Assembly (NCBI RefSeq): GCF_002210295.1
Contig: NZ_MWQH01000014.1
Span: 1-40,496, forward strand
Direction: 5' to 3'
Origin: Fibrobacter sp. UWB5
Lineage (GTDB): Bacteria > Fibrobacterota > Fibrobacteria > Fibrobacterales > Fibrobacteraceae
DNA: 40,496 nt
Shown here: piece by piece, positions 1-13,763 of the stretch
Layout of the letters: the number at the start of each line of letters is the position of its first letter
Position numbering within the stretch: position 1 is the stretch's first letter
Program-made: the position numbers and the translations under genes
The notes under the pieces: generated by a model
The model's input: the letters and a program-made list of their open reading frames with translations, nothing else
Told to the model about the DNA's origin: nothing
Database searches by the model: none

Positions 1-63
1 ACCGGTAATGAATATGGTCGTTCATGAACCCACTATTAAAAAACCTACAAATCCAGTTATGAT

Positions 64-360: not shown

Positions 361-421
361 AATCCTTTTTTTTCATCTCGTGAATAACTTTTTCTAGGGA
401 GTAGATTTCTTTTCGGGTTCT

Positions 422-525: not shown

Positions 526-936
526 TTACTTTTTCTTCATCCCCTTGATTTTTTCCTTGTGCATCGCCTTGAGTCTTGCTCGGTCTGCGTTGAGCGAGGC
601 GATTTCCCGGGCGACGGCTTCGATTTCGGTCGGGTATAGTTTTGTGGGCAGAGCCCTGTAGTATTTCTTGAAGTCCTTGTCGCGAATAGTCCCTTCGGGA
701 ATTTTGTCGCCCATCTTCGCGTTGTTTCCGAAAATCACCAGGTCAATGAACTTGTCCTTCAGTTTCGGAAACTTTTCGCACAACGCTTGGATGTGCCCGT
801 AGTTCTGGTGGTGCGGATTCTGTTTGCCGTGTGTTTCTCGCCGATGTGCCCGACCCCACGAAGTGGGGGAACGCCCGTTAGAACGGGAGGGCTTTGACAA
901 TCCAGCGACCGTCTCTTTTTGAACCGACTCGTTCAA
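526..936 (-). CDS. hypothetical lysine-rich protein, start uncertain
   Basis: I do not recognise this protein. The C-terminal ~95 residues (from GKQNPHHQNYG to the terminal KGMKKK) look like genuine protein: charged, helical, with DKFIDLVIFGNNAKMGDKIPE in the middle and a Lys-rich tail. The first ~35 residues are read out of phase across the last codons of the fic gene and through two hairpins (854-887), and there is no ribosome-binding site before the ATG at 936. The gene has therefore probably lost its own 5' end, or starts further in at a non-ATG codon. It overlaps fic by 59 nt. It may be the 3' remnant of another gene joined to the fic 3' end by the hairpin element. No function proposed. 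Confidence 0.4.
   Translation of the reverse strand: MNESVQKETVAGLSKPSRSNGRSPTSWGRAHRRETHGKQNPHHQNYGHIQALCEKFPKLKDKFIDLVIFGNNAKMGDKIPEGTIRDKDFKKYYRALPTKLYPTEIEAVAREIASLNADRARLKAMHKEKIKGMKKK
854..887 (-). terminator. double hairpin at the fic stop codon
   Basis: Two adjacent inverted repeats, CCCGTT-AG-AACGGG (874-887) and CCCCAC-GAA-GTGGGG (854-868). The fic stop codon (878-880) lies inside the first one. On the minus strand no T-run follows, so this is either a weak terminator or a REP-like element that replaced the original 3' end of fic. Confidence 0.4.
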
Positions 937-1897
937 GCGTTCCGTACTGCTGCAACTTCGCTAGATCACGTTCAATCGTCCTTGGGGTGACGGCAAACTT
1001 TTCTGCCAATTCCTTTTCGGTAAGGAAGTTGTTCTTTTTCAGCGCTGCGATAATCTTTTCTTGACGGGCGGTCAAGTGGATGGTTTCTGCAACTGGCGTC
1101 TCGACTTCAACATTCTGAACATCCTTTAGTGCTCCCAGAATCTTGTCCAGCATGAATTCGACAAAAATACTGCAGTCGCCGGCCGTGCTTGATGCGTTAA
1201 TTGCGTTGTAGTATTCCTGTTGGTTGGCGTAGACCAGGTTCTCGACGGGCAGGTGCGCAAAGACAGGATTCCACTTGCCTAGAATAAGGGATTGCCACAG
1301 GCGGCCCATTCGTCCGTTGCCATCACGGAACGGGTGGATGAACTCGAATTCATAGTGAAAGATGCAGGACCGAATCAGCCAATGCATCTTGCTCCTCTTT
1401 AGCCAAGAAAAGAGGTTCTTCATCAGGATGGGCACCATTTTCGGTGGGGGAGCGAAATGGACGCACTTTTTCCCTTTAAATACGCCTTCATTGCAATTCC
1501 TGTATTTGCCCGCGTCGGGAATCATGCCCTGCATCATTACGCCATGGGCCTTGAGCAGGTCCTTTTCAGAAAACGCGTTCAGCGAAGGGTACAGTTCGTA
1601 TGTCCGCAAGGCGTTCTTCACTTCCAGGATTTCGCGTGCAGGGGCCATAATCCGCTTGCCTTCGATGATGTCGGATACCTGATCTTCGGAAAGCATGTTG
1701 CCTTCTATCGCCAGGGAACTGTGGATGCTTTGAATCTGGTTGACCCTGCGCAGGCGCAGACTATCCGGCTGTTCCAAACGGATGGCAAACCGTTCGACCT
1801 TGGCCGCAATCTCTGCTGCAAGGTTGACTATCGCCGTGTTGAGCGTAAAGGGCGGCTCATATTTATCCGACATTTTCATGGACATCTTATCCGACAT
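878..1897 (-). CDS. Fic family protein with C-terminal winged helix
   Basis: Fic proteins usually transfer AMP from ATP to a Ser, Thr or Tyr of a target. The catalytic loop HPFRDGNGRMGR (residues 188-199) is a complete HPFxxGNGRxxR motif. The self-inhibitory motif SLAIEG (61-66, consensus [S/T]xxxE[G/N]) lies N-terminal to the Fic core, which makes it class II, regulated in cis. An N-terminal Fic_N-type region precedes it (about 20-100). Residues 275-335 form a winged helix with an HTH near ELAEKFAVTPRTIERDLAKL, typical of Fic regulators that also bind DNA. The start at 1897 gives MSDKMSMKMSDK, a 4-residue repeat encoded by 12-nt units; no Shine-Dalgarno sequence is visible, so a later start is possible. 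The last residues (ALPF) come from the hairpin element. The substrate is unknown. Confidence 0.9.
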   Translation of the reverse strand: MSDKMSMKMSDKYEPPFTLNTAIVNLAAEIAAKVERFAIRLEQPDSLRLRRVNQIQSIHSSLAIEGNMLSEDQVSDIIEGKRIMAPAREILEVKNALRTYELYPSLNAFSEKDLLKAHGVMMQGMIPDAGKYRNCNEGVFKGKKCVHFAPPPKMVPILMKNLFSWLKRSKMHWLIRSCIFHYEFEFIHPFRDGNGRMGRLWQSLILGKWNPVFAHLPVENLVYANQQEYYNAINASSTAGDCSIFVEFMLDKILGALKDVQNVEVETPVAETIHLTARQEKIIAALKKNNFLTEKELAEKFAVTPRTIERDLAKLQQYGTLERVGSKRDGRWIVKALPF

Positions 1898-1919
1898 TAA
1901 ACCGACATTATTCCGACAT
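1862..1919 (-). repeat. 11/12-nt repeats with two three-codon mini-ORFs leading into fic
   Basis: On the minus strand five ATG-led units follow one another from 1919: ATGTCGGAATA, ATGTCGGTTTA, ATGTCGGATAAG, ATGTCCATGAAA and ATGTCGGATAAA. The first two are 11 nt long and read M-S-E-stop and M-S-V-stop, each stop overlapping the next start as TAATG. The last three are 12 nt long and stay in frame as the N-terminus of Fic. The layout is what stop-start reinitiation would look like, but translation of the mini-ORFs is inferred. Confidence 0.6.
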
Positions 1920-1962
1920 TTTAAATATATATTATGCGCCGTTGCCGGTCAAGTAGAATGCT

Positions 1963-2148
1963 TTATTTCTTCCTCAATTTCCCGCCAGCAAATACCACCA
2001 GGAGGGCGCCAGCGGCTACGCCGCCGACCTTCTTGAGGTCGCTCCAGAATTGCCGCCGTTTTGCCTTGCATTGTTCGCAAAGCTTCTCGGTGTCTTCGGG
2101 CTTGTCGCAGCCGCACTTCTTGCATTTGTTCCAGAGTTTTTGAGTCAT
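1963..2148 (-). CDS. small zinc-ribbon protein with C-terminal membrane helix (61 aa)
   Basis: The ATG at 2148 has a clear Shine-Dalgarno sequence (AAGGAG) 7 nt upstream, so the longer upstream frame was not used. Residues 9-27 hold five Cys (C9, C12, C14, C24, C27) in a CxxC...CxxC zinc-ribbon-like pattern. Residues 42-57 (VGGVAAGALLVVFAGG) are a short hydrophobic segment followed by KLRKK, so the protein is probably membrane-anchored with a basic end. It starts 45 nt after the stop of the 265-residue unknown gene on the same strand, so they are probably co-transcribed. No function is known to me. Confidence 0.7.
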   Translation of the reverse strand: MTQKLWNKCKKCGCDKPEDTEKLCEQCKAKRRQFWSDLKKVGGVAAGALLVVFAGGKLRKK

Positions 2149-2192
2149 CGCGAGATCTCCTTGGCGTCTGGATTCTAATATACTCAATTGCG

Positions 2193-2990
2193 TTAGATGA
2201 AGTCCTCTACTTTCGGGACATAATTCTCGGGGCATTCCTCTTTCTTGGTTTGCCGGAGCGCCTTGCGGAGCTTTGCGGCGAGTGTCTTGGATACGGGCTG
2301 CGAGGGCGGCAGCACGTCGACTGTGGGGGGTATGTCGGTTCTGATGCAGAAGACGTCTGCGTCTAAGGGGTTGAGGATGGCAACGACATAGCGGTCGTCG
2401 AGTATGTCCGGGTAGTTGTCCGGGAATTTTTCGCCGGTTGCTCCGCCGAGTGCATCCCAGATGGGTTTCATTTGCTCCTTGGTGGCGGGCGTCTGCCAGA
2501 CGATTGCGAGTTCCACGAATTCATCGTTCGCAATTTCCACGATGTCGCCTTCCTTGAAGCGGATGGTTTCGGGATCCCTGCCGTAAAAGCCGGTGTCGCC
2601 CAGTTCCATGTTCTTCCCGTCGCAACGGCATACGCCCGAGGTGCTGCTTACTTGCCAGAGGGTGCCGTCTTTCAGGTAGCGCCTGGTGGATATGTCCCTC
2701 ATGCCCGAGATAATGTGGCCGAGCGGCCGTTCGCTGACGACAAAGCCGTAGAGGTCCCAGTCGCCTTGGGCGGCAATCCGCTTGATGTGCTTCTCGGCTT
2801 CGGCGAGCGTCTCGAAGTAGCCGGCGTCTGTCCCGAATATGCAGAATCCGGGCTTGTTGCGGTAATCTTTGGGGCGCCCGTCTTCGTCGAGGCGGTACTT
2901 GGGCGTTGAAAGGCCGACGATTTCGTAAACCTGCAGTTTGTAGATCGTCCTGAAGTTTTCTCTGTCCACGTGGATGACTTTTATGCCCAT
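2193..2990 (-). CDS. hypothetical protein (265 aa)
   Basis: I do not recognise the family. The start at 2990 (MGIKVIHVDREN) is chosen because AAGGAGG lies at 2996-3002 just upstream; the frame stays open 15 codons further without a better signal. The protein is soluble, without signal peptide or membrane segment. It contains YFETLAEAEKHIKR (a segment typical of small alpha/beta modules) followed by WDLYGFVVSERPLG, then an acidic central part and a Lys-rich C-terminus ending CPENYVPKVEDFI. The first half reads like a domain handling device- or request-style metadata proteins of unknown role, so no function is claimed. It is the first gene of a two-gene unit with the zinc-ribbon protein. Confidence 0.75.
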   Translation of the reverse strand: MGIKVIHVDRENFRTIYKLQVYEIVGLSTPKYRLDEDGRPKDYRNKPGFCIFGTDAGYFETLAEAEKHIKRIAAQGDWDLYGFVVSERPLGHIISGMRDISTRRYLKDGTLWQVSSTSGVCRCDGKNMELGDTGFYGRDPETIRFKEGDIVEIANDEFVELAIVWQTPATKEQMKPIWDALGGATGEKFPDNYPDILDDRYVVAILNPLDADVFCIRTDIPPTVDVLPPSQPVSKTLAAKLRKALRQTKKEECPENYVPKVEDFI

Positions 2991-3081
2991 GATGACCTCC
3001 TTATCTATATGAAATATAATCTCCAACTGCGACAAATAATGACATATAGGGAGGAAAATTTATTCCGACATTAATCGTTCA

Positions 3082-3166
3082 ATGAAACAGAAATGTCCAA
3101 TAAAATGTCCAATAAAGAATGATGGCGGTTGGGTGATGAGTTGGGCAATAAGTTGGGTGATAACGG
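3082..3166 (+). repeat. fossil of Fic/AlbA_2 linker repeats
   Basis: On the plus strand one frame from 3091 reads MSNKMSNKE, a TGA, then WRLGDELGNKLGDNG. The first half repeats ATGTCCAATAAA twice; the second is built from 12-nt units such as TTGGGTGATGAG. Both are the 4-residue linker units found at the start of Fic proteins and between the AlbA_2 and winged-helix parts of Schlafen-type regulators. The block is closely similar to 6931-6975. It lies between two minus-strand genes and has no surviving gene around it. Confidence 0.6.
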
Positions 3167-3168
3167 TC

Positions 3169-3684
3169 TTATTTCCTTTTCCACTTCGCAATACGCGTCT
3201 CGCATTCAGCCTTAGGCAAACGCATGTTCAAAGTCATCAGGGCTTCAAGATTCTCCGCTGCTTCCAACGCAGACAATAATCCATATTCAACGAAATTGTC
3301 AAACAGGTAGAGAACGCCAGAAACCTTCACGTTGTCTTTTTCTGCGGCGGAGCGAAGTTTGCCGTCACCCGTCAAAAGTCGCCCATCGACCTTTTTAGCA
3401 TAGTACCAAACTGAACAATCCGCAATGGATGTGTTGTTTTTGCTGTTAGACTGCAGAAGCAGAATTTCGCTAAACTCGTCGAAATCAAACGAGGCGACGC
3501 CCAACTTTTTTGCCTTGATAAACTTCTGAATAATTTTCTGTTGTTCCGGTCTCTCTATTTCACTGATTACGAAGTCGGTCGTAAAAATTTCGCAGGGTAG
3601 GGCAAAGAACGCTTCCAGCAATTGAACTGAAAGTAAGTCAATTATGACGTTTGCATCACTGATGACAATCCGTTCTTCAATCAT
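3169..3684 (-). CDS. PIN-domain protein, probable toxin partner
   Basis: PIN domains are Mg-dependent ribonucleases and commonly the toxin of toxin-antitoxin pairs. The acidic residues expected in the active site are present: D10 (ISDANVIIDLL), E42 (SEIERP), D89 (SIADCSVWYYAKK) and D107 (LLTGDGKLR). At 171 residues it is a little longer than VapC (about 130-140), with an added C-terminal helical part. Its ATG overlaps the stop of the upstream XRE-ImmA gene (ATGA at 3681-3684), so the two are translationally coupled. XRE-COG2856 proteins next to PIN, RES or similar toxins are a recognised arrangement; the antitoxin role of the partner and the RNA target here are inferred. Confidence 0.88.
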   Translation of the reverse strand: MIEERIVISDANVIIDLLSVQLLEAFFALPCEIFTTDFVISEIERPEQQKIIQKFIKAKKLGVASFDFDEFSEILLLQSNSKNNTSIADCSVWYYAKKVDGRLLTGDGKLRSAAEKDNVKVSGVLYLFDNFVEYGLLSALEAAENLEALMTLNMRLPKAECETRIAKWKRK

Positions 3685-4736
3685 ACCAGTGCGAGATCCC
3701 TACGGACTTGTTCGATGTCCAGGTGCAACAGGTTTGCCGCCTTGGATATGGTGATGAGTTCCTTGCTCAGCGCCTTATAGACCAGGCTCACGAAACGGGT
3801 GGATTCTTCGTAGTGGTACAGCGACTTTTCGATAAGTGCCCTAAATTTCGTTGCCTTGTTTTTCTGGATGCAGAAGGTGCGGTAGCGCTGTTCCGAGATG
3901 ATGCCGCATTCCTTCGCCTTGTACATGATTGCATCGCAAGAGATTCCGTAGCCGAGCTGGATGGCTCTCAGTTCCTGGTACGAGATGTCCTTGCGGGCCT
4001 TGCCGAGGATCCGCTTGAGTTCGGGTTCCGGGACCAGCATTTCGCTTGCGAACAAGTGGCAGAAAGATTCTTCCTGCTTTTTGTCGATGGGCTTGGGGAA
4101 GCGAAGCACGAGGTGCCCGAGTTCGTGAAGCGCGGTAAAGCGTTTGCGCTCGACAGAGAACGTCCTGTTCAAAATGACGACGTGGAATTTTTCGTTGACC
4201 AAACTACTCATGCCGTCAAAGGATTCCGGGGCGTCAATCTCGATGACTTTCACGCCGTGGTTTTCGAGCAGGTCGATTACATTCACGATGCCTGCCAGGC
4301 CGAGCTTCCATTCCTTGCGGACTACCGCTGCGGCCATTTTAACGTCTTCGGCGGAGTTGGCCTTGATTTGGGGAATGTGGTGTTTCGCGGCAGAGCTGCT
4401 GCAGATTTCCTCGATGTTGATGTAGCGTTCCATCAGGTCGGCGATGGTTTCGCGGAGGCTGTTTTCCTTTTTCTGCGGGAGCGAGCTTTTCTTGCGGAAC
4501 CTCACGGAATCTACCTGCACCGTAAAGGGCCTGAAAAAGTAGTCAATGGGCAGGCCCAGCGCCTTGGATAGTGCGATAATAATGCCACTATTCGGTGCGA
4601 GCTGGCCGTTCTCGTACTTTGAAATCGCCATCTTTGAGACGACATTCCCCATGGCCGTACAAAGTTCGTCCATAGAGAGCCCTTTCATAATTCGGGCGTT
4701 TTTGAGTCTAGCTGAGAAAATGGAAAGGTCTGCCAT
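3681..4736 (-). CDS. XRE-type regulator with ImmA/IrrE metallopeptidase domain
   Basis: Residues 8-67 form an XRE/Cro helix-turn-helix (recognition region VSKMAISKYENGQ). Residues about 140-260 are a COG2856/ImmA-IrrE zinc peptidase with HELGH at 204-208 and a candidate third ligand in QEESFCHLFASEML (221-234). The C-terminal ~80 residues are helical. Proteins of this build act as a repressor that can also cleave a partner, and serve as antitoxin-like members of TA operons. Start at 4736 follows GGGAG. A 9-bp perfect inverted repeat (4750-4786) lies directly upstream and is the obvious candidate operator for autoregulation. The gene runs into the PIN gene with a 4-nt overlap. Whether it cleaves or only sequesters PIN is not visible. 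Confidence 0.9.
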   Translation of the reverse strand: MADLSIFSARLKNARIMKGLSMDELCTAMGNVVSKMAISKYENGQLAPNSGIIIALSKALGLPIDYFFRPFTVQVDSVRFRKKSSLPQKKENSLRETIADLMERYINIEEICSSSAAKHHIPQIKANSAEDVKMAAAVVRKEWKLGLAGIVNVIDLLENHGVKVIEIDAPESFDGMSSLVNEKFHVVILNRTFSVERKRFTALHELGHLVLRFPKPIDKKQEESFCHLFASEMLVPEPELKRILGKARKDISYQELRAIQLGYGISCDAIMYKAKECGIISEQRYRTFCIQKNKATKFRALIEKSLYHYEESTRFVSLVYKALSKELITISKAANLLHLDIEQVRRDLALV

Positions 4737-4749
4737 AAAGTCTCCCGTT

Positions 4750-4786
4750 GTTTACAAATATATATCTTTTTATAGATTTTGTAAAC
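4750..4786. promoter_or_regulatory. inverted-repeat operator upstream of the XRE gene
   Basis: GTTTACAAA (4750-4758) and TTTGTAAAC (4778-4786) are exact reverse complements 19 bp apart, 14 nt before the XRE-ImmA start. The AT-rich spacer holds TATAAA-like candidates for a -10 element on the minus strand. Autoregulatory binding by the XRE protein is inferred. Confidence 0.55.
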
Positions 4787-4810
4787 CCGACTATATATCC
4801 GACTGCAAAG

Positions 4811-4860
4811 GCGACAATAACACTACAATAAATGCTACAAAAAAAACGCTACAATAAAAC
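4811..4860 (+). repeat. ACAATAAA-type 12-nt repeats
   Basis: Four units begin at 4811, 4823, 4835 and 4849 (GCGACAATAACA, CTACAATAAATG, CTACAAAAAAAACG, CTACAATAAAAC). They match the DTIN/DTIK-type linker coding seen at 6847-6884. No surrounding gene remains. The block sits between the XRE operator and the leader cassette of yhcG. Confidence 0.5.
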
Positions 4861-4893
4861 CTATGGATATAATGCAGGCGATACTTACTTGAG

Positions 4894-4923
4894 GACCATT
4901 TTGTTGGTGACAACCAAATGGTC
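4894..4923. promoter_or_regulatory. 30-nt palindrome between XRE and yhcG
   Basis: GACCATTT (4894-4901) pairs with AAATGGTC (4916-4923), and inside it GTTG pairs with CAAC around a GTGA tetraloop, with one mismatch between the two stems. It lies about 27 nt upstream of the -35 element of the yhcG promoter. It could be a protein operator or an RNA hairpin. Confidence 0.5.
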
Positions 4924-4949
4924 TGCTTTGTAAAATTTTTTCCTAACCC

Positions 4950-4978
4950 TTGCCACATCTGTCGATTTTAGGTACATT
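4950..4978 (+). promoter_or_regulatory. promoter of the leader cassette, copy A
   Basis: TTGCCA (4950-4955) and TACATT (4973-4978) are 17 bp apart, a sigma70-like layout. The block TAGGTACATTA and the upstream TGTAAAATTT are repeated before the AlbA_2 remnant at 7131-7171, with the same 17-bp spacing. Confidence 0.6.
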
Positions 4979-4985
4979 AACGCCC

Positions 4986-5042
4986 GACGCATCTCGCTGT
5001 TTTAAGGCGAGGTGCGTTTTTGTTTTAACCGGCTTTTCGGTT
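4986..5042 (+). ncRNA. leader hairpins, copy A (attenuator or small RNA)
   Basis: Ten base pairs, CGCATCTCGC (4988-4997) with GCGAGGTGCG (5007-5016), one of them G-U, are followed by TTTTTGTTTT. A second small hairpin AACCG/CGGTT spans 5027-5042. The predicted transcription start falls at the base of the first hairpin. Since no plus-strand gene lies upstream, the structure is best read as a 5' attenuator or a very short terminated RNA, not as the terminator of a gene. Confidence 0.5.
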
Positions 5043-5099
5043 TTGCAAGAACGCCTCTAACATCAACCGGTTGCAAATTGCGGCCACTTGGAGGCTATA

Positions 5100-6230
5100 A
5101 TGGAAAAAATAAGTCCTTTTTATAACGATGCTGTTCAGCAGATAAAGTCTGCTATTCTCGAAAGCCAGTTGGAGACGGCTCGGGCGGCCAACAAGCAGAT
5201 GCTATCGCTATACTATGCGATAGGCAAGTTCGTTTCCGAAAATTCCCGCAAGGGAACCTGGGGTACAGGGGCGATAGATACAATAAGTGCTCAACTTCGG
5301 CGGGAATTGCCTGGATTGCGAGGATTTTCGGCATCTAACATCAAAAAAATGAGGATATTCTTTGAGCGATGGCTCCCTGTTTTAAATCGCCAGCCAATGG
5401 CTGACGAATTAGAAAATGTCGAAAATAGCGAAAAATCGGCAAAAATACCGATTTTTGCGCTTCTTAATCTAAATCGTTCGCCATTGGCGAACGATTTGGA
5501 CTTCACCGAATTTCTAGAGCTGAGTTTTACTCACCATATGGAAATCCTTCTGAAGACCTCCACTTTGGAAGAGCGTGCTTTCTACATTCATCAGGCACTC
5601 ATAAACCATTGGGACAAGTACGCTCTGCGCGATTACCTCAAGGCGGATTTGTATCACCACCAAGGGCAACTCCCCAATAATTTCGCATTAACCTTGCCCA
5701 AAACGCTCCATGCGCAAAAGGCAATCTCGATGTTCAAGGACGAATACTTGCTTGACTTTGTCAATGTGGAAGAACTTGACGAGCGTAATCCCCAGGATAT
5801 TGACGAGCGCGTTGTCGAAAATTCCATTGTCCAGAATGTCAAGAACTTTATTTTGACGTTTGGAAAGGATTTCACGTACGTCGGTCATCAAATCCATATC
5901 GAAAAACTTGATCACGATATGTGGGTTGATCTGCTCTTCTATAATCGCGAGTTGCAGAGTCTTGTCGTTGTGGAATTAAAGAAGGGGGAGTTCAAGCCTG
6001 CGTATCTCGGACAGCTCTCGGCATATATGCGTGTGCTGAACGACGACGAACGGAAGGCAAACGAAAATCCGGTCATCGGCATTATTCTGTGTAAGGGTGC
6101 GGACAAGTCATTTGTTGAGTATCTGTTGCAAGATTACAACCAGCCCATGGGTGTTGCGACCTATAAGGTTATGCCGGAAAAACTGAAAGCCGTCATGCCC
6201 GACGAAAAATTGCTCTTGGAAGTTATGTAA
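5100..6230 (+). CDS. YhcG/DUF1016 family PD-(D/E)XK nuclease
   Basis: The ATG at 5100 is used because GGAGG lies just upstream; a TTG at 5088 opens the same frame. Residues 10-95 match the DUF1016 N-terminal domain (SLYYAIGKFVSE...GFSASNIKKMRIFFE). Residues 200-370 are the nuclease domain with D277 (WVDLLFYN), E292 and K294 (VVELKKGEF) and Q305 (YLGQLSAYM), the expected PD-(D/E)XK set. At 376 residues it has the usual family length. Members occur in defence and mobile regions, and the DNA target is unknown. Three palindromes (5387-5497) lie inside the reading frame, in the linker between the two domains, giving the related peptides NRQPMADEL and NRSPLANDL. It is transcribed from leader cassette A and is followed after 38 nt by a 119-residue unknown gene. 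Confidence 0.92.
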   Translation: MEKISPFYNDAVQQIKSAILESQLETARAANKQMLSLYYAIGKFVSENSRKGTWGTGAIDTISAQLRRELPGLRGFSASNIKKMRIFFERWLPVLNRQPMADELENVENSEKSAKIPIFALLNLNRSPLANDLDFTEFLELSFTHHMEILLKTSTLEERAFYIHQALINHWDKYALRDYLKADLYHHQGQLPNNFALTLPKTLHAQKAISMFKDEYLLDFVNVEELDERNPQDIDERVVENSIVQNVKNFILTFGKDFTYVGHQIHIEKLDHDMWVDLLFYNRELQSLVVVELKKGEFKPAYLGQLSAYMRVLNDDERKANENPVIGIILCKGADKSFVEYLLQDYNQPMGVATYKVMPEKLKAVMPDEKLLLEVM

Positions 6231-6268
6231 AACCCGAAATTAAGTTTAATCATAAAAACGAGGAAAAA

Positions 6269-6628
6269 ATGAACTATACATTTACAGAACAAGAAGTTGA
6301 AATGATGTATTACTGGGGACAATATGCTGATGGTGAAAGCGGCTTTACTGAAGAAGAACAAAAATTATACGATAAAATAGAGCGAATTTTTACGCCGTTG
6401 CAAAAAGAAAAAGATGAATCTCGCAAGATTGTAGAATTCTTTGAAGAGATATGCAGTACATATAAGGGGGTGTCATATTCTTTGCGATTCCCCGGAGGAA
6501 ATTGCATAAGATTCATTGACGTAGATAAAGACCTTTGCTTCGACACGAAAAAGTCAAAGTACACGGATGTGGTGTTGGAGGTATCTAAGATTATAAACAA
6601 ATTGAAGTTGAAAAAAAGGGAGGGGTAG
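6269..6628 (+). CDS. hypothetical acidic protein (119 aa)
   Basis: I do not recognise this protein. It starts at an ATG with GAGG 8 nt upstream and ends 32 nt before the first AlbA_2 remnant. It is soluble and rich in Glu and Lys. An N-terminal helical half (TEEEQKLYDKIERIF) is followed by a short beta-like middle (VSYSLRFPGGNCIRFIDVD) and a Lys-rich C-terminal helix. It follows yhcG by 38 nt on the same strand without a terminator between, so co-transcription with the nuclease is likely. That makes it a candidate accessory or immunity partner, which is inference from position only. Confidence 0.65.
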   Translation: MNYTFTEQEVEMMYYWGQYADGESGFTEEEQKLYDKIERIFTPLQKEKDESRKIVEFFEEICSTYKGVSYSLRFPGGNCIRFIDVDKDLCFDTKKSKYTDVVLEVSKIINKLKLKKREG

Positions 6629-6660
6629 ATTACCCAATTGTGAACTGAAGGAGATTATTA

Positions 6661-7109
6661 TGTCAATGCCTATAGATGTCGAGACCCTGTTGAACAGGCA
6701 GCGTATCGAAAGTGAGCGGATAGAATTCAAGAGAGGGTGGAACCCTGCGGGGATGTTGTAGTTATGAAATCACCTGAAGTTTCGGATGAAACAGAAATGT
6801 GGCCTAAAAAATGGCCCAAAAAGTGGCCAAAAATTCCGTGTGGATGACACAATAAAGACACAATAAATGATACAATAAAAGGCCGAAATTTTGCGGTCGA
6901 AAAGTTCGTCCGCAAATGAAATGTGATTTCGGTTGGGTGATGGGTTAGGTAATAAGTTGGGTGATAGGATAAACGACAGGATAAATGATAGGATAAGTGA
7001 TAGGATAAAACGGCCTTGACCCGAACAAGTGCCTGAACATGTATTGAACGACCGTCAAAAAGAAATAGTGTCGATTATAAAAGAAAAAAAACATACCTAC
7101 GCGAAGTAG
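6661..7109 (+). pseudogene. decayed AlbA_2 (Schlafen-type) regulator, copy 1
   Basis: An ATG at 6661 opens MSMPIDVETLLNRQRIESER followed by IEFKRGWNPAGML and a stop at 6760-6762, which is the start of AlbA_2 ATP-binding regulators. The bulk of that domain is absent. Downstream come linker fossils: MWPKKWPKKWPK (from 6795), DTINDTIK-type units (6847-6884), then LGDGLGNKLGDRINDRIND (6932-7010). A winged-helix start, LNDRQKEIVSIIKEKKHTYAK, ends at TAG 7107-7109 in yet another frame. The parts are in family order but in different frames, so the gene is dead. This also explains the ~650-nt stretch without an intact gene. Confidence 0.75.
6931..7010 (+). repeat. 12-nt tandem repeats (GTGATAGGATAA type)
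   Basis: Six to seven degenerate 12-nt units run from 6931 to 7010, reading LGDGLGNK then (RIND)n in one frame. The first 45 nt are nearly identical to 3130-3165. They correspond to the linker of an AlbA_2 regulator and sit inside the pseudogene. Confidence 0.65.
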
Positions 7110-7141
7110 TTGAAGCGCTCTGTAAAATTTCGTTAGGCCTC

Positions 7142-7170
7142 TTGCCAGTTTTCTGAATATTAGGTACATT
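7142..7170 (+). promoter_or_regulatory. promoter of the leader cassette, copy B
   Basis: TTGCCA (7142-7147) and TACATT (7165-7170), 17 bp apart, in the context TAGGTACATTA, the same as copy A at 4950-4978. The spacer sequence differs between the copies, while the boxes and spacing are kept. Confidence 0.6.
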
Positions 7171-7178
7171 ACATCCCA

Positions 7179-7231
7179 GCGCGTCATTCCCTAGAAAGGA
7201 ATGATGCGCTTTTGCTTTATTTGGCTTTGCC
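7179..7231 (+). ncRNA. leader hairpins, copy B
   Basis: Twelve base pairs, GCGCGTCATTCC (7179-7190) with GGAATGATGCGC (7198-7209), one of them G-U, are followed by TTTTGCTTTATTT and a second small hairpin GGC/GCC (7223-7231). Order, distance from the promoter and the T-rich tract match copy A, while the stem sequence is different, which points to conservation of structure. Confidence 0.5.
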
Positions 7232-7278
7232 GTAATGCGAGGGCGTTCCTAGTTGAAACAATAAATGCAGGAGGCCCT

Positions 7279-7566
7279 ATGGCAAGTGAAATCTTACGAC
7301 AAACAGTTTCAATGAAACTTAAAAACGTTCTTGCAATCGGAGAAACTGTCGCTGTAGAATTCAAGCGCGCTGGCGGTCGTGTTGGCGACGATGTTTATGA
7401 GTCTGTGTGTGCTTTCTTAAATCGTTTCGGTGGCGATATTTATCTCGGGGTCCTTGATAATGGTAAAGTTGAGGGCGTTCCAGAAAATGCGGCTATCGAT
7501 ATGATCAAGAACATCATCAATGTTGCGAATAATCCGACTCTATGGAAGACGATGTGTTTAGAATAA
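7279..7566 (+). CDS. AlbA_2 domain fragment (copy 2, N-terminal part)
   Basis: Start at ATG 7279 with AGGAGG 6 nt upstream; the longer frame from 7201 runs through the leader hairpin and was rejected. The 95 residues carry the AlbA_2 core: VAVEFKRAGG (about 26-35), then VYESVCAFLNRFGGDIYLGVLDNGKVEGV. Family members continue for some 250 residues more before the C-terminal winged helix, but here the frame stops at 7566 and the matching C-terminal part begins in another frame at 7542. The simplest reading is an internal deletion near 7535-7545. It might still make a small DNA-binding-like protein. It is driven by leader cassette B. Confidence 0.65.
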   Translation: MASEILRQTVSMKLKNVLAIGETVAVEFKRAGGRVGDDVYESVCAFLNRFGGDIYLGVLDNGKVEGVPENAAIDMIKNIINVANNPTLWKTMCLE

Positions 7567-7862
7567 CAGTATCGCTGAATGATTATGTGGGAGAGCCTCG
7601 AAATGAAGAGGTTAACAATAGGGTTAACAATGGGGTTAACAATAGGGTTAACAGTAAATTCAGTGAGATTCAGCAAAAAATTATTAATGTATTGCGTGAA
7701 AAACCAGCAATAACGCAAAGGGAAATGTCCAAGTGCATATCCATTTCTCTTGTACATATAAATAAGAATATGAGAGCTTTGCAAAAAATGGGGGCCGTTA
7801 GCCGTGTTGGCAATAATAAACAGGGATCATGGATAGTTAATGAAGAAAAGGAGAAGTCTTAG
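7542..7862 (+). CDS. winged-helix fragment (copy 2, C-terminal part of AlbA_2 regulator)
   Basis: The frame begins MEDDVFRITVSLNDYVGE, the edge strand that normally precedes the linker in AlbA_2 regulators. It continues with the linker VNNRVNNGVNNRVNSK encoded by four 12-nt units GTTAACAATAGG (7611-7658), then a winged helix (about residues 43-100: IINVLREKPAITQREMSKCI, GSWIV). It overlaps the N-terminal fragment by 25 nt in a different frame and has no own Shine-Dalgarno sequence, so separate translation is doubtful. Together the two fragments are one internally deleted gene. Confidence 0.6.
   Translation: MEDDVFRITVSLNDYVGEPRNEEVNNRVNNGVNNRVNSKFSEIQQKIINVLREKPAITQREMSKCISISLVHINKNMRALQKMGAVSRVGNNKQGSWIVNEEKEKS
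7611..7658 (+). repeat. four 12-nt repeats GTTAACAATAGG
   Basis: Four consecutive units GTTAACAATAGG, GTTAACAATGGG, GTTAACAATAGG, GTTAACAGTAAA, in frame, encode the (VNNR)n linker between the two halves of the regulator. They are the least degenerate of the linker repeats in the window. Confidence 0.8.
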
Positions 7863-7905
7863 ACCTGTTGAACCCAACAAGTTGAATGGGGAGTTGGAAT
7901 AACCC

Positions 7906-8997
7906 CTACCTCCCGACTTTCACCCGTTTCCCGTTCTTGAGCTGGTGCGTGGTGGCGTCGGGGTGGGTGTTTTTGCGGCCGACGAGGGTGCCGTCAATTC
8001 TGTAGGTTTCAACAGGGACAATTGTGGCGCGGTTTTGTGTCTGCGCCCAAATTCGCTCAACGTCGCTGGTATCGCGGACGCTTGAGTCCGCAGTGGTCGC
8101 GCTTGCCGTCACGGCGATGGAATCGGTAGATACGGTGAAGTTGTCGTAGCGTATAAAGCAGTCGTGGGTGGGGGCCCATTCGGCGCTGCTTCCGCCGTGG
8201 AATGTGGAGAGGTAGAACTTGTCGACCTTCACGGTGTCGTAGTCGCGGAGCCTGAGGGTATCCACGTCCAATACGAGTTCGCCGTCAAGCCAGGTTTGTA
8301 CGCGGCCGTTCTTGTCGCCGTTGCCGGGAGAGGCGATGGTATTCATACTTACTTTGTTTACAATGCGGTGCCAGGTGCCGGTGGTGAACACCTTTTGCGG
8401 GATGGTGCCGTTCAGATTCCACTTGAAATCGTCACCGTATACGGACTCTTGCCCCATAAAGTAGATGAGTTGTACGGCGTTGCCGTCTTTGCGCCACATG
8501 ATGCGTGCGCTCCAGCCGTCGCCGGTTTCGGGCATGGCGTTGCCGGTGTAGCACTTGCCGCCGCATAGGCCGGGGAGCTTTCCGCCGAGCTGGAACTCGA
8601 ATCCGTCTTCGAAGAATATGTCGTAGGCGCTCCACATGGTGTCGGCGGTCTTTACAAGGGGTTGGATGATTTGCGCGGCGCAGGCGGGCGTGTCGTTGTC
8701 ATTCGGGCCTACGCAGCCCTTGGGGTACTTGAGCTGCAGTACGTTGCCGTGTTCCTCGCCGTCGTAAACGATCTTGGAGTTTTCGCCATTGTTCTTGTCC
8801 ATGGCGTACCACCAACTTTTGTCGTAGTCGTTGCGCTTGAAGTCTTCCTTGGCCTCTGCATTGCCGTACACGCCGACATCGCGGTTCTCGAAGTTCACGA
8901 ACGAGACGGTGTCGGACGCAGTCTGCGCGAAGGCGGACGCTTGCATAAGCGCGACAGCGAGTGCCGCGACGAAGGTGTGGTGGATTTTCATACTCAT
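7906..8997 (-). CDS. secreted polysaccharide lyase, PL14-like
   Basis: A signal peptide (about residues 1-25, ending ASAFAQ) marks export. Residues about 110-300 resemble the beta-jelly-roll lyase fold of PL14-type enzymes: YDIFFEDGFEFQLGGKLPGL, ARIMWRKDGNAVQLIY, GTWHRIVNKVSMN, a DGELVLD strand, and STFHGGSSAEWAPTHDCFIR with YDNF closing the sheet. Such enzymes cut uronic-acid polymers by beta-elimination; the substrate (alginate, glucuronan or other) cannot be told. The C-terminal ~40 residues (VETYRIDGTLVG...LKNGKRVKV) look like a short sorting or basic terminal domain as on other Fibrobacter secreted enzymes. Start at 8997 or the ATG at 8991; neither has a clear Shine-Dalgarno sequence. 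It is divergent from the 9047 gene. Confidence 0.75.
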   Translation of the reverse strand: MSMKIHHTFVAALAVALMQASAFAQTASDTVSFVNFENRDVGVYGNAEAKEDFKRNDYDKSWWYAMDKNNGENSKIVYDGEEHGNVLQLKYPKGCVGPNDNDTPACAAQIIQPLVKTADTMWSAYDIFFEDGFEFQLGGKLPGLCGGKCYTGNAMPETGDGWSARIMWRKDGNAVQLIYFMGQESVYGDDFKWNLNGTIPQKVFTTGTWHRIVNKVSMNTIASPGNGDKNGRVQTWLDGELVLDVDTLRLRDYDTVKVDKFYLSTFHGGSSAEWAPTHDCFIRYDNFTVSTDSIAVTASATTADSSVRDTSDVERIWAQTQNRATIVPVETYRIDGTLVGRKNTHPDATTHQLKNGKRVKVGR

Positions 8998-9046
8998 GCT
9001 TTTAAAATAATCTTTTTTGGCTGGTATTAAACTATCTTTTTAATGT

Positions 9047-9268
9047 ATGGCCGATTCACTTGACGAAAAGCACAATGAAGTGGGCGCGACTCCCGTTGCC
9101 GCGGCACCTGCTGCCCGAACTTCAGCAGACCGCGCTGCCGAAGAACGCAAGGCCCGCATTCGCAAGATGCGCGGGTGGCTTTCGCCGCGTGATTCCGAGG
9201 TAGATGATTTCGGGCCCGAAGATGCCGCGCTTTATTACGGCGAAGGGCATAACGGCTGGAATAGGTAA
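9047..9268 (+). CDS. hypothetical small protein (73 aa)
   Basis: I do not recognise it. The frame runs from ATG 9047 to 9268 and is followed directly by a strong terminator (9281-9310), which supports it as a real gene. The N-terminal half is Ala-rich and likely disordered (GATPVAAAPAARTSADRAAE), the middle is basic (ERKARIRKMRGWL) and the C-terminus acidic (VDDFGPEDAALYYGEG). No Shine-Dalgarno sequence is visible, and the promoter must lie in the 49 nt shared with the lyase gene. Confidence 0.5.
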   Translation: MADSLDEKHNEVGATPVAAAPAARTSADRAAEERKARIRKMRGWLSPRDSEVDDFGPEDAALYYGEGHNGWNR

Positions 9269-9280
9269 TGTTTAAATGAA

Positions 9281-9310
9281 AAAATCCCTCGGCAAGTGCC
9301 GGGGGATTTT
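9281..9310. terminator. bidirectional terminator
   Basis: A 14-bp stem, AAAATCCCTCGGCA (9281-9294) with TGCCGGGGGATTTT (9297-9310), one wobble pair, a 2-nt loop and A/T-runs on both sides. It lies between the converging 73-residue gene and ahcY. Confidence 0.85.
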
Positions 9311-9351
9311 GAATTTTGTGGCGCTTGCAGCCTGCTTGCGCGCGATACCGA

Positions 9352-10812
9352 TTAATAACGGTAGTGATCAGCCTTGTACGGGCCTTCCACAGGTACGCCG
9401 ATGTAGTCGGCCTGGGCCTTGGTGAGGGTCGTCAGGTGGACGCCGAGCTTTTCGAGGTGGAGGCGTGCGACCTTTTCGTCGAGGATCTTCGGGAGCGTAT
9501 AGACGACGCCGCTTTCGTACTTGATGCCGGCGACGGTCTGCTTGCCCTGCGCGTTGAGCCAGAGGTCGATCTGTGCGATGGTCTGGTTCGTGAAGGAGGC
9601 ACTCATCACGAAGCTCGGGTGACCAGTAGCGCAGCCGAGGTTCAGCAAGCGGCCTTCAGCGAGGATAAGGATGCTGTGGCCGTCGGCAAAAATCCATTCG
9701 TCGTACTGCGGCTTGATTTCGTTGCGCTTGATGCCCGGAATCTTCTTGAGGCCGGCCATGTCAATTTCGTTGTCGAAGTGACCGATGTTGCCCACGATAG
9801 CGCGGTTCTTCATCTTTTCCATCTGAGCGGCGCTAATGATGCCGGTGTTACCGGTGGTGGTCACGAAGATGTCGGCGTAGCTCACGACTTCGTCGAGGGT
9901 CTTGACTTCGTAGCCTTCCATAGCAGCCTGCAGAGCGCAAATCGGGTCGATTTCGGTGATGATCACGCGAGCGCCCTGACCACGCAGGGACTGGGCGCAG
10001 CCCTTACCCACGTCGCCGTAGCCGCAAACCACAGCAATCTTACCGGCCATCATCACGTCGGTGGCGCGGTTGATGCCGTCGATCAAGGAGTGGCGGCAGC
10101 CGTAGAGGTTGTCGAACTTGGACTTGGTCACGGAATCGTTCACGTTGATTGCCGGGAACTTCAGACGGCCAGCCTGGGCCATCTGGTAAAGGCGATGCAC
10201 GCCGGTAGTCGTTTCTTCGGAAACGCCCTTCAAAGCTTCGCGGGCGCGGGTCCACTGCTTCGGATCCTTTTCGAAAATCTTCTTGCAGGTGGCGAGGAAC
10301 ACGCCCCATTCTTCGCTGTCGGTAGCCGGGTTGAATTCAGGCACCTTGCCGGCGTCTTCGAATTCGGCGCCGCAGGTCACGAGCATGGTAGCGTCGCCAC
10401 CGTCGTCCACGATCAGGTCCGGGGTCTTGCCGTCGGGCCACACGAGGGCGCGGGCGGTGTTTTCCCAGTAGTCTTCCAAGGATTCACCCTTCCAGGCGAA
10501 TACAGGCACGCCCTGCGGATTTTCCACGGTGCCCTTCTTGCCCACCACCACGGCGGCGGCAGCGTTGTCCTGCGTGCTGAAGATGTTGCAGCTGACCCAG
10601 CGCACGTCGGCACCGAGGTCCACCAGCGTTTCGATGAGGATGGCGGTCTGCACGGTCATGTGGAGGCTACCCATAATGCGGGCGCCAGCGAGCGGTTTCT
10701 TGCCTGCATATTCCTTGCGGAGAGCCATCAGGCCCGGCATTTCAGTTTCGGCCAAGTCGAGTTCCTTGCGGCCTTCGATCGCAAGGTTAATGTCCTTAAT
10801 TTTGTATTCCAT
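9352..10812 (-). CDS. ahcY: adenosylhomocysteinase (S-adenosylhomocysteine hydrolase)
   Basis: The NAD-dependent cytosolic enzyme splits S-adenosylhomocysteine into homocysteine and adenosine in the methyl cycle. The start at 10812 ([11 protein letters not shown]) is chosen by family alignment and AAAGGA upstream; the longer frame reads through an upstream palindrome. Key parts are the substrate region [13 protein letters not shown] (about 223-235), the Rossmann motif GYGDVGKG (264-271), [14 protein letters not shown], and the C-terminal KADHYRY that reaches the neighbouring subunit's NAD. It has the bacterial/plant-type insert of about 40 residues (about 150-195), which explains the length of 486 against about 430 in animals. 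A perfect 12-bp inverted repeat (10853-10886) lies 41 nt upstream of the start. No metK or metE is adjacent. Confidence 0.98.
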
Positions 10813-10852
10813 GTTATTATATCCTTTGGCACAAATTTTGCGCCCCATGTTT

Positions 10853-10886
10853 CTTTTATGCATAAATATAGTTATATGCATAAAAG
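10853..10886. promoter_or_regulatory. perfect 12-bp inverted repeat upstream of ahcY
   Basis: CTTTTATGCATA (10853-10864) and TATGCATAAAAG (10875-10886) are exact reverse complements around a 10-bp AT-rich centre. Size and position fit a dimeric repressor or activator site in the ahcY promoter; the protein is unknown. Confidence 0.65.
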
Positions 10887-10907
10887 GCGTCAACCCTACC
10901 CGGCAAT

Positions 10908-10934
10908 AAAAAATCCCCGACCAGGGGTCGGGGG
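10908..10934 (-). terminator. terminator of the SpoIIE-STAS unit
   Basis: CCCCGACC (10915-10922) with GGTCGGGG (10926-10933), 3-nt loop, followed on the minus strand by six T (10908-10913 read in reverse). It ends the STAS gene 33 nt after its stop. Confidence 0.85.
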
Positions 10935-10966
10935 TAAGTCTTGCGCGCTTGAACGCCTCGAATAAG

Positions 10967-11263
10967 CTATTCGATAGTCAGGATGTCGCAGAAACCGGTC
11001 ACTTCGAAAATTTCCTTGATTTCGGAGCTAGCGTTCTTTACGACCATGGTGCCCTGCTTGTTCATGACCTTCTGTGCCATCAGCAGAATGCGCAGGCCTG
11101 CAGAAGAGATGTAGTCAAGCTTCTTGAAGTCAAACACCAACGACTTCACGCCATCGAGCTTGCCTTGGATTTCGGCATCGAGCTGCGGGGCGGTCAGAGT
11201 ATCCAAGCGACCTTCGAGTGCGACGGTCAATTTATCGTTTTCGATTGTCTTGTTAATCTGCAT
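10967..11263 (-). CDS. STAS-domain anti-sigma factor antagonist
   Basis: At 98 residues this is a single STAS domain of the SpoIIAA/RsbV type. The phosphorylatable Ser lies in [12 protein letters not shown] (about 49-60), and the N-terminal strand [11 protein letters not shown] is typical. In partner switching the dephosphorylated protein binds an HATPase kinase and frees its target. The likely partner is the SpoIIE-HATPase fusion encoded 43 nt upstream in the same operon: its phosphatase domain would dephosphorylate, and its HATPase domain could phosphorylate, this protein. No sigma factor gene is nearby, so the output is unknown. Confidence 0.93.
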
Positions 11264-11306
11264 ATTTTTCCCTCTTTCTCTTAAATTTATAAAAGTTTAC
11301 AAGACT

Positions 11307-13763
11307 TTACAAGGTCTTGGTGATAGCCAGTTCGTTCTTGTCGCCGTTTCTGCGGTAACAAACGCTGTCCATGGTCTTTTTCACAATGAATATTCCAAGA
11401 CCGCCGACTTCGCGTTCTTCGGCCGGCAACGTAATGTCGGGGTCGGCCTGCTTGATCGGGTCGTAAGGTTTACCATTGTCGATAAAGGTGAGTCTTGCCG
11501 AAAGCGTCGCCTTGCGGATTTCTACAATCAATGTCACTTCGGTTGCTCCCGAGAACTTCACGATATTGCTGTAGATTTCGTCGATCGCGATGTTGATTTG
11601 CATCTGCGACTTCATGGAACCTTCCATCGGGGCCAAGATACCTTCGACGAATGCCGTCAAGATGTCTTGGTTTTCAGGAATCACGTCCACAATTTTTTCA
11701 TAACGCTCCCAAGCGTCTTGCATCTGCATCTTCTTTGCTCCATCCATTGGTGTAAGGATGTCTTCGACAAACGACTTGAGTGCGTGGCTCTTGCCGTTAT
11801 CGGAAACATCGATAGTTTTTTCGTAGCGCTCCCACACCGGTTCGTCGATTCCGTTGAACCTGACGGCAAGCATGGTGATGTCGTCGAATTGCGGAACGTC
11901 TTGTACAAAGTTGTCGATTTCTTTCTTGACCAGGTCGCAGGTGTCGGCGGGGCTCAGTTCGCCACCTTTACGAATGACTGCGAGGAGCCTGTCGTCTCCG
12001 AACAGTTTGTTCTCGCTGTTGGTTGCTTCGGTGACGCCGTCGGTGTAAAGGAACAGCGTGTCGCCCGGCTTGAGGTCGTAAGTCTGCTGCTTGTAAACCG
12101 TATTTTCCATGGCGGCCATGACTACGCTCGACTTGCTCGGAATAAATTCGGTAGAGCCGTCTTTGTGTCGTACCACGGGCGGGTTGTGGCCAGCCGAGGC
12201 AAAGTCGATATGGCCCGTGCGCAGGTCGATAATGCCTGCCCACACGGTTACGAACATGTTCAGGCGGTTGCGCTTGGCAAGAGCGTAGTTGGTCTTGCTG
12301 AACGCATCGCAGACCGACTTCAGGTTCTTGGTCATGGTGCGCAAGATAATGCGTGCAACCATCATGAACAAGGCGGCGGCAACGCCCTTGCCGGACACGT
12401 CGCCGATCACTACACACAAATGATCGTTGTCGATCTTGAAGAAGTCGTAGAAGTCGCCACCCACTTCCTTGGCGGGCAGCAGGAACGGTGCGAGTTCGTG
12501 GCGGTCATCGTCAGAATTTTCGTCGCGTTCTTCGCCGGGCAGCATCGAAAGCTGAATGTTTCGGGCAAGGTCGAGTTCGCGCTCGATACGCTTCATGTCC
12601 TTCTGCTTTTCGATGTTTTCCTTGATTTCGGTGAGCATGTGCGAGAACGCCCACGCGAATTCGGCCACTTCGTCATGACCCGTGATTTTCGGAATCGCCA
12701 CGTCGAAGTTTCCGCGCCCGAGCTTGCGGGCCGCAATGGTCAAGTCCTTGAGCGGCTTTGCCACGCGGAACGAAATCAGCAAGATAATTACGAGTATTAC
12801 GCCGTATCCGCCGAGAGCCATCATCAAGAACAGCCTGCGCATGGCGCTCTGGTCTTCCAGGTATTTCTGGATCGGCCACACGACCATGAACGTCCAGTTG
12901 GTCGAATGGATCGTGGTGTAGTAAATGGCAGATTCTTCGCCGCCGGCAACCGTACCGATAAACAGGCCGCTACTGTCACGACCCTTGCGGTCAAAATTGG
13001 TTAAGCTGTTGCCTCGTTTTTCTTTGACAATAATGTCGCGGTTTCTTTTTCCTTGGGCAAGTTCCTTGGGGTACGCCACAGCCAAGTTCTTGGCGGTGGT
13101 AACCAAGGCGTATCCGGAGTTCGAAACAGGAATCGATCCGATTTCTTCTTTCAGGAATTCGATGGACATGTCAACGGCAAGCACGCCGACTAGCACGTCT
13201 TCGCCATTCTTGTCTTTTTTGAAAAGGGGAACGGTATAGACTGCAATCGGTTCCGGGACAAATTCACCGATGAACGGTTCCTGCCAGCGGGCGGTCTTGC
13301 CGTCTCTTACGCTGTAGTACCATTCCTTGTCCTGGTAGTTCGCACCAGATACAAGCTTGGTATCAACGTGGTCAAAGCGGGCGAGTCGCATGTATTCGCC
13401 TTCTGTGTTTTCGGGGCCCATTCCCGGTTCGTAGGCGACTACCACAGCGACCACTTGGGGCACCAGGTTGCGGGCGTTAAAGAGCGACTGCAGCAAAAAG
13501 TCGTCCATGTCGCTTTTGGTCATGGGGTGATCGGTCAGTTTGTGCGACAGGTCGTCGCCAATGACCTTGCCCGCGTTAAAGAGCTTGTCGATGTAGTTCA
13601 CGTTCGCACGGCTGGTTTCTTCACCATTTTCGACAGTCATCTTGTTTAGCATGTTCTGAGTCTTGTAACTCATGATGCCAAAAATCAGGCCGAACACGAC
13701 TGTAATAGCCGCGAGAATCATCAAGGACTGCTTAAAAGCGAGCCCGCGGAAATTAAATCCCAT
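11307..13763 (-). CDS. sensor SpoIIE-type phosphatase fused to an RsbW-like HATPase
   Basis: Domain order in 818 residues: TM helix 12-32; extracytoplasmic Cache-like sensor about 35-305 (ANYQDKEWYYSVRDGK, AVYTVPLF); TM 310-332; HAMP about 332-385; coiled linker; SpoIIE/PP2C phosphatase about 425-636 with GGDFYDFF, GDVSGKG, TDGVTEATN and FDDITMLAV metal-ligand motifs; HATPase about 680-818 with N box NIAIDEIYSNIVKFS and G box GGLGIFIVKK. Phosphatase and kinase of a partner switch are thus on one chain. Residues 643-682 and 684-722 are a tandem duplication (EPVWERYEKTIDV / DAWERYEKIVDV, each ending in a DGAKKMQMQ or EGSMKSQMQ-like stretch). Start at 13763 follows GAGAGGAA. The STAS gene follows 43 nt downstream. 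The signal sensed is unknown. Confidence 0.93.
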   Translation of the reverse strand: MGFNFRGLAFKQSLMILAAITVVFGLIFGIMSYKTQNMLNKMTVENGEETSRANVNYIDKLFNAGKVIGDDLSHKLTDHPMTKSDMDDFLLQSLFNARNLVPQVVAVVVAYEPGMGPENTEGEYMRLARFDHVDTKLVSGANYQDKEWYYSVRDGKTARWQEPFIGEFVPEPIAVYTVPLFKKDKNGEDVLVGVLAVDMSIEFLKEEIGSIPVSNSGYALVTTAKNLAVAYPKELAQGKRNRDIIVKEKRGNSLTNFDRKGRDSSGLFIGTVAGGEESAIYYTTIHSTNWTFMVVWPIQKYLEDQSAMRRLFLMMALGGYGVILVIILLISFRVAKPLKDLTIAARKLGRGNFDVAIPKITGHDEVAEFAWAFSHMLTEIKENIEKQKDMKRIERELDLARNIQLSMLPGEERDENSDDDRHELAPFLLPAKEVGGDFYDFFKIDNDHLCVVIGDVSGKGVAAALFMMVARIILRTMTKNLKSVCDAFSKTNYALAKRNRLNMFVTVWAGIIDLRTGHIDFASAGHNPPVVRHKDGSTEFIPSKSSVVMAAMENTVYKQQTYDLKPGDTLFLYTDGVTEATNSENKLFGDDRLLAVIRKGGELSPADTCDLVKKEIDNFVQDVPQFDDITMLAVRFNGIDEPVWERYEKTIDVSDNGKSHALKSFVEDILTPMDGAKKMQMQDAWERYEKIVDVIPENQDILTAFVEGILAPMEGSMKSQMQINIAIDEIYSNIVKFSGATEVTLIVEIRKATLSARLTFIDNGKPYDPIKQADPDITLPAEEREVGGLGIFIVKKTMDSVCYRRNGDKNELAITKTL

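Follow-up and report, generated by a model that had tools for sequence, protein, structure and literature searches.

The window, that is the whole stretch of 40,496 nucleotides of Fibrobacter sp. UWB5 DNA analysed here, carries two alignable copies of one promoter and leader, as the original prediction had stated. Copy 1 (4929-5099) ends at a start codon at 5100, ahead of a gene for a DUF1016 nuclease-like protein, and copy 2 (7121-7278) ends at a start codon at 7279, ahead of an AlbA_2 gene. The two downstream genes are unrelated, also as predicted, the second being recognised by its SLFN_AlbA_2 match. Both copies begin at TGTAAAATTT (4929 and 7121) and continue in the same order, with TTGCCA-N17-TACATT, a hairpin followed by a T-run, a variable part, an anti-Shine-Dalgarno and a Shine-Dalgarno (SD) sequence. 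A terminator scan also flags the hairpins with their T-runs at 4986-5018 and 7178-7210. An Rfam search of window positions 1-12000 (E up to 5) gave no match overlapping either leader, and no match above the gathering score assigns them to a known cis-regulatory RNA.

Cassette 1, like cassette 2, lies on the forward strand. Its left-end block (TGTAAAATTT...CCC, 4929-4949), which comparison of upstream ends identifies as the left homology border among units, is followed by the promoter TTGCCA-N17-TACATT (4950-4978), by the P1 hairpin and U-run holding strands A and B (4986-5018), by the anti-SD GCCTC, part of strand C (5053-5057), and by the SD GGAGGC, strand D (5090-5095). The gene (5100-6230, 376 aa) encodes a PDDEXK nuclease-like protein with DUF1016_N (Pfam, E 8.1e-26) and YhcG_C (E 2.9e-44) that matches PADLOC PDC-S02. 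Downstream of it lie a small gene without Pfam match (6269-6628, MNYTFTEQEVEMMYYWG...), homologues of which trail three different cassettes, DUF1016 in the window, ORF6N in L055 and AlbA_2 in L111, and, on the forward strand, a remnant of another AlbA_2 gene (6660-6761, MSMPIDVETLLNR...), whose 466-aa relative in L306 stands behind a leader. On the other side, cassette 1 is adjoined by two overlapping genes on the minus strand (3169-4736), one encoding a 351-aa protein with HTH_3 and an IrrE-like Peptidase_M78, the other a 171-aa partner without Pfam match; the pair is missing from the matching place in genome G094.

Cassette 2 consists of a left-end block (7121-7141), the promoter TTGCCA-N17-TACATT (7142-7170), a P1 hairpin of 13 pairs with its U-run in a class III leader (7178-7210), an anti-SD in shifted register assigned from fold and sequence (GGGCGTTCCT, 7241-7250) and the SD GGAGGCCC (7270-7277). 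The internal deletion that had been proposed for its gene is confirmed, as about 0.89 kb is gone and the frame is split into an N-terminal part of 95 aa (7279-7566, forward strand) and a C-terminal part of 106 aa comprising linker and winged helix (7542-7862, forward strand, another frame), leaving no intact SLFN_AlbA_2 frame across 7279-7862. The SLFN_AlbA_2 profile match at 7342-7521 covers profile positions 1-64 of 118. Window positions 7040-7543 are 99.8% identical to 1101-1604 of locus L158, and from window position 7532 on the match resumes at L158 position 2481; the junction sits in a short direct repeat, ATCCGACT. The intact gene in L158 encodes 490 aa, and the frames of the relatives L154, L158 and L166 span 490-495 aa.

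How widespread is the leader? A covariance model built from an alignment of 37 leaders scores the window copies at 151 and 116 bits (E 4.8e-22 for leader 2) and matches 66 of 80 genomes of the genus. Across the phylum, 73 of 167 genomes match (E up to 0.001, strict filters), all 73 in one family; the seven outside the genus belong to two other genera of that family, and the remaining genomes among the 167 searched gave no leader match. A strict pattern run over the GTDB collection found 49 contigs, all titled Fibrobacter, Fibrobacteraceae or Fibrobacterales. A viral vehicle was considered as well; three viral contigs carry the promoter pattern and reach only 25, 20 and 13 bits with the covariance model, which we took as chance. 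No paper on the leader or on a cassette system was found among literature titles and abstracts in a collection that leaves most subscription journals outside its coverage. The genome of the window (G000) has four leader copies, the two described here and two others, at C1:865820 before an HTH_3 gene and at C2:393817 before a 71-aa gene from a cluster in which some proteins have DUF2442.

Scanning 155 loci with the model gave 169 matches, or 167 distinct contexts once two identical ones were merged, with L158 representing the window's second copy in the merged counts. Leaving out three weak or degenerate matches (L076 1067, L157 2460, L154 8602), 164 remain; 16 of these have downstream frames below 60 aa, which were omitted from the Pfam scan, giving 148 proteins. 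Pfam assigns DUF1016_N to 39 of them, SLFN_AlbA_2 to 32, Bro-N to 32 and ORF6N to 7, and single proteins to RhuM plus Fic, RelB, an HI1420-type antidote and, below the cut-off, BrnT. The downstream genes in relatives are thus strongly enriched for DUF1016, Bro-N, AlbA_2 and ORF6N, and RhuM-Fic and toxin-antitoxin parts also occur. Altogether the leader stands before eleven BLAST clusters of at least two members each, and before singletons. An association with AlbA_2 genes only, which would have spoken against the original prediction, is excluded by these many unrelated families, and no random housekeeping gene was recognised behind the leaders, where several small families have no Pfam match. 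The latter include clusters c7, c8, c9 and c10 and a small MKSKEIFST family. Given that such families sit behind the leader, it can serve as a search handle for new defence genes.

In PADLOC, 40 of the 148 cargo proteins match PDC-S02 and 37 match PDC-S13; single scans pair DUF1016 with PDC-S02, Bro-N with PDC-S13, ORF6N with PDC-S05 and RhuM-Fic with PDC-S23. PDC systems are termed phage defence candidates in PMC13356809. Three of the four largest cargo families therefore match single-gene phage-defence candidates, whereas the AlbA_2 protein (one member scanned) has no strong PADLOC match, and the PADLOC models, unlike the cassettes, cover proteins only. In 13 genomes of the genus there are 33 YhcG_C and 35 AlbA_2 matches in all, indicating that these families are rare genome-wide and dominant behind the leader. 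By their coordinates, about 5 of the 33 and about 8 of the 35 carry the type A leader, that is the leader described so far, so these genes can do without it. We conclude that in Fibrobacter and its closest relatives one promoter and folded leader precedes dozens of genes that are unrelated to one another and in many cases are candidates for virus defence.

The conserved pairing of anti-SD with SD places the leader among SD-sequestering leaders, or translational attenuators. In an alignment of 98 leaders, P1 (A:B) is paired in 99.3% of cells with both-side changes in 7 of 11 pairs, and C:D, the anti-SD to SD helix, in 98.0% (inner stem 95.7%), counts biased in favour of the model, to which the alignment had been fitted. 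A further helix, B:C, is absent from the model, and it is paired in 99.3% of cells, one of its pairs being UA in 40, CG in 44 and UG in 13 of the 98. The B position of that pair cannot pair with its expected P1 partner in 18 of the 98 leaders but fails to pair with C in just one, which means that it tracks C. Against shuffles, two of five measures of B:C are not clearly better (double-change pairs 36 of 500, pair types 189 of 500). From these pairings, A, B, C and D are predicted to form a chain of overlapping, mutually pairing strands. Background offers a parallel: in four-strand attenuators of the trp leader type, pairing is likewise mutually exclusive, 1:2, 2:3 and 3:4. The leader differs from these in that D is the SD, the terminator-like hairpin is 1:2 and no leader peptide is conserved. 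A leaderless peptide at the transcription start was considered and rejected, its ATG being not conserved and missing from many copies.

Folding, by computed energies only and with the transcription start assumed from the promoter, predicts that the SD is hidden. Seven weak, truncated or degenerate matches were omitted from it, as were leaders with frames below 60 aa, without SD motif or of outlying length. The predicted probability that the SD is unpaired has a median of 0.009 in 141 leaders against 0.29 in 92 shuffles. Blocking nucleotides 1-14 raises its mean from 0.05 to 0.37 in 136 leaders, and blocking nucleotides 6-19 raises it to 0.41. Blocking B (21-34) leaves it at 0.05, with no opening, the mean is 0.05-0.14 for blocks placed between 11-24 and 51-64, and it is 0.21-0.47 when the anti-SD region is itself blocked, an opening that has to occur. 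In 115 of the 136 leaders, a block on the 5' arm lifts the SD unpaired probability by more than 0.2; when every third leader was compared with shuffles retaining the anti-SD to SD part, that rise was reached by 34 of 39 real leaders against 6 of 117 shuffles. In accordance, leader 1 goes from 0.001 to 0.34 with its first 14 nucleotides blocked. Leader 2 only moves from 0.078 to 0.086 with its 5' arm blocked, and no relay is predicted for it. With its class III leader, broken AlbA_2 gene and lack of a predicted relay, cassette 2 appears to be a decayed instance.

A second leader, type B, was found in 21 of 80 genomes (two matches being weak). It shares the left block, the start of the promoter and the cargo with type A and has a different RNA, in which a terminator-like hairpin is nested inside an SD-hiding stem and the A-D chain is absent; its SD is predicted to be closed (below 0.1) in 13 of 19 cases. 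Different RNAs built on one plan argue that hiding the SD is the point. Type B leaders were seen at L256, L257, L258, L261, L271-L289 and L310, before DUF1016, AlbA_2 and an unnamed family (MTKQSFHDVNVF...); a gene behind type B, MTKQSF..., had no match among the known cargo. A possible type C leader, on the same plan as type B, begins at position 458 of L295 with ACCTCCAAG, followed by a hairpin with T-run and by TTGGAGGT before the start codon.

Could the leader be a ligand-sensing riboswitch or an RNA thermometer that controls a defence regulon, its movement being incidental? The conserved promoter and the multi-helix relay architecture agree with this, but the window leaders have no Rfam match (positions 1-12000, E up to 5), P2 is highly variable with no evident conserved pocket, and type B leaders lack the A-D chain yet keep a terminator-like hairpin and an SD stem. 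We regard this explanation as unlikely, though it fares best among the alternatives to the reading that we prefer, an exchangeable single-gene cassette with an SD-hiding leader.

The preferred reading draws on the borders of the unit. Among 5633 alignments crossing the leader, 4707 have their left end 15-45 nt upstream of TTGCCA, and homology mostly begins at TGTAAAATTT. We compared 53 pairs of cassettes that share the same gene at 92% identity or more. Sixteen of them, 14 Bro-N and 2 AlbA_2, have tight borders, with a left end at -33 to +1 and a right end at most 5 nt from the stop codon; L051 and L150 are 96.4% identical over 999 nt, and L150/L196 is a tight pair across genera. Near-identical units in unrelated flanks indicate that a bounded unit has moved, and not just that a functional region is conserved. 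A flank longer than 100 nt is shared on the left by 12 of the 53 pairs and on the right by 13, as expected for units at the same place.

The places themselves recur with different contents. The 184 cassettes with a usable left flank fall on 125 flanks, 25 of which occur more than once, and 10 of these 25 bear two or more gene families, one of the ten (5 members, ...GGGGAACGCC) resembling a dispersed repeat that may not be one place. The 3' end of a nitroreductase gene (Pfam) is an exchange place whose cargo differs between genomes: with type A it holds DUF1016 and leader II, Bro-N and leader III, or ORF6N and leader I, and with type B a DUF1016, an AlbA_2 or an unnamed gene. The nitroreductase gave 33 matches in 28 of 80 genomes, and the 20 places read comprise 6 with type A, 4 with type B and 10 without leader. 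L260 lacks a cassette, and there the nitroreductase gene is followed by a homologue of the polysaccharide-lyase gene found in the window (7906-8997, Polysacc_lyase_14 by Pfam); homologues of it also lie downstream of cassettes in L146 and L257. In G066, G049, G046 and G051, ahcY lies 3-5 kb beyond the nitroreductase place, as in the window. The 21 nt at 7097-7117 (forward strand) are identical to the nitroreductase 3' end flanking other cassettes, and together with the lyase gene and ahcY they put cassette 2 at the same exchange place. On its own ahcY was rejected as an anchor, because synteny holds in some genomes only and in G004 it is about 77 kb from the cassettes. G004 lacks window positions 7011-7902 at the matching place, and G094 lacks about 3117-6860. 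G067 (L275) has the left flank of cassette 1 too, there with a type B leader and a different gene behind it.

Leader and gene can also part. L171 and L310 share a left flank (96.6% over 384 nt) and an AlbA_2 gene (95-97% over two stretches, between which L310 lacks about 155 nt), and one of them has a type A leader, the other a type B leader. Their RNA parts differ; a 27-nt left block is common to both types. Its variant AAGCCCC occurs with 16 type A and 6 type B leaders and GCCCCTC with 13 and 6, as expected if recombination runs through the block. The original prediction that the leader travels independently of its gene thus holds in part: the leader stands before many families and can separate from its gene, as in L171/L310, but the two usually move together.

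Sharp borders, single-gene units and swaps at shared flanks are also what an integron-like or other site-specific system would leave, in which a recombinase supplied in trans would use either the left block or P1, folded as DNA, as its att site. The left block shared by both leader types is very specific, matching 63 of 80 genomes while its reversed control matched none, which fits such a system. Integron gene cassettes (attC/IntI) are likewise single-gene units with sharp borders and accessory cargo, exchanged at shared sites. In our case, however, each unit has its own promoter and leader on its 5' side; unlike attC, the hairpin is found between a promoter and the 5' end of the gene; and the many G-U pairs in P1 suit an RNA better than a DNA hairpin. 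The window's contig gave no match to a tyrosine recombinase, and the shortest distance from such a match to any of the four G000 leaders is about 30 kb, so in G000 no integrase of this family is linked to the cassettes. No shared 3' element was seen by eye after the stop codons. We consider a site-specific system rather improbable.

Still less probable, and already disfavoured, is an ordinary native 5' UTR, the promoter region of horizontally spread families without modular exchange. Leader class III stands almost only before Bro-N genes and accounts for 20 of 33 Bro-N leaders, which indicates common descent of leader and gene in many cases; the one exception among the intact leaders scanned is an AlbA_2 type (window/L158, L154, L166). 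A native 5' UTR does not sit well with one leader before so many clusters, with different leader-gene units on the same left flank, or with L171/L310, where gene and flank are kept and the leader differs. Finally, a non-autonomous IS200/IS605-type unit, in which a Y1 transposase would act on P1 as its end hairpin and the SD lock would be the brake that transposon genes usually carry, is very improbable: PMC12594629 describes a 5' stem-loop in the IS200 tnpA mRNA that hides the ribosome-binding site and keeps the mobile gene silent, as the leader is predicted to do, but the genes behind the present leader are many and unrelated, the 25 Pfam families matched most often by the 148 cargo proteins include no transposase, Y1_Tnp matches are absent from G000 and present in only 4 of 13 genomes of the genus, tight-pair homology ends at the stop codon and inspection by eye found no shared right-end element beyond it.

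Taken as a whole, we think that the feature is probably the front half of an exchangeable single-gene cassette with an SD-hiding, relay-switched leader, swapped at shared chromosomal sites. Such a cassette would start with the UP-like block at TGTAAAATTT, continue with a promoter of the sigma-70 type and the structured leader RNA, and close with the stop codon of its single gene, in many cases a candidate for defence. If the RNA is made as the promoter suggests, it would keep the gene off by hiding the SD and probably also by early termination at P1. With A and B paired in P1, C would be free to pair with D and lock the gene; with A occupied, B would pair with C and D would be released. We take the leader to be a lock on risky genes that an occupied strand A would open. 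The most likely route of exchange would be recombination within the left block and leader that the cassettes have in common. A question then arises from the predicted relay that can be put to the test, which signal opens the leaders, and does phage infection do so? More speculative, and in our estimate doubtful although a little less so than any of the alternatives, is a Fibrobacteraceae-specific system for exchanging single-gene defence cassettes, where a short stretch of DNA would combine the roles of recombination handle, promoter and RNA lock, and where a single trans signal on the 5' arm would open every cassette in the cell together. Cassettes of this kind would, if real, explain how a genus keeps and shuffles many possibly self-harming defence genes, in standard units under the same switch.

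The 12-nt repeats upstream of both copies had been proposed to belong to the exchange unit. They are present at 6943-7009, where one frame reads NKLGDRINDRINDRISDRIK, and weaker units at about 4811-4860 were read from the sequence and not flagged by a thresholded period-12 scan. The proposal does not hold, since the 450 nt ahead of the leader contain such repeats in 7 of 159 cases, compared with 42 of 815 controls, these controls being downstream-side stretches of the same loci, including AlbA_2 genes with such linkers. At cassette 1, the repeats are part of the flank that also occurs in L275 ahead of a different cassette. Repeats of this kind are local to certain flanks.

Some cassettes are further modified. 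By eye, about 14 copies have a REP/MITE-like palindromic element immediately ahead of the promoter, always at the same point between the left block and a -35 that reads GTGCCA in these copies (L036, L045, L061, L081, L086, L092, L109, L112, L113, L123, L145, L157, L187, L201), and related elements lie inside the leader, in the U-run region, in L043, L060, L293, L294, L301 and L308. In L038, L148, L151, L116, L121 and L059, a partial leader tail with the SD part lies between the stop codon of the first gene and the start of a second, which gives the impression of units stacked into one leader. Elsewhere in the window, two large tandem paralogous genes with PA14 domains (17328-21275 and 21505-25317) share many direct repeats at a spacing of 4.04-4.19 kb.
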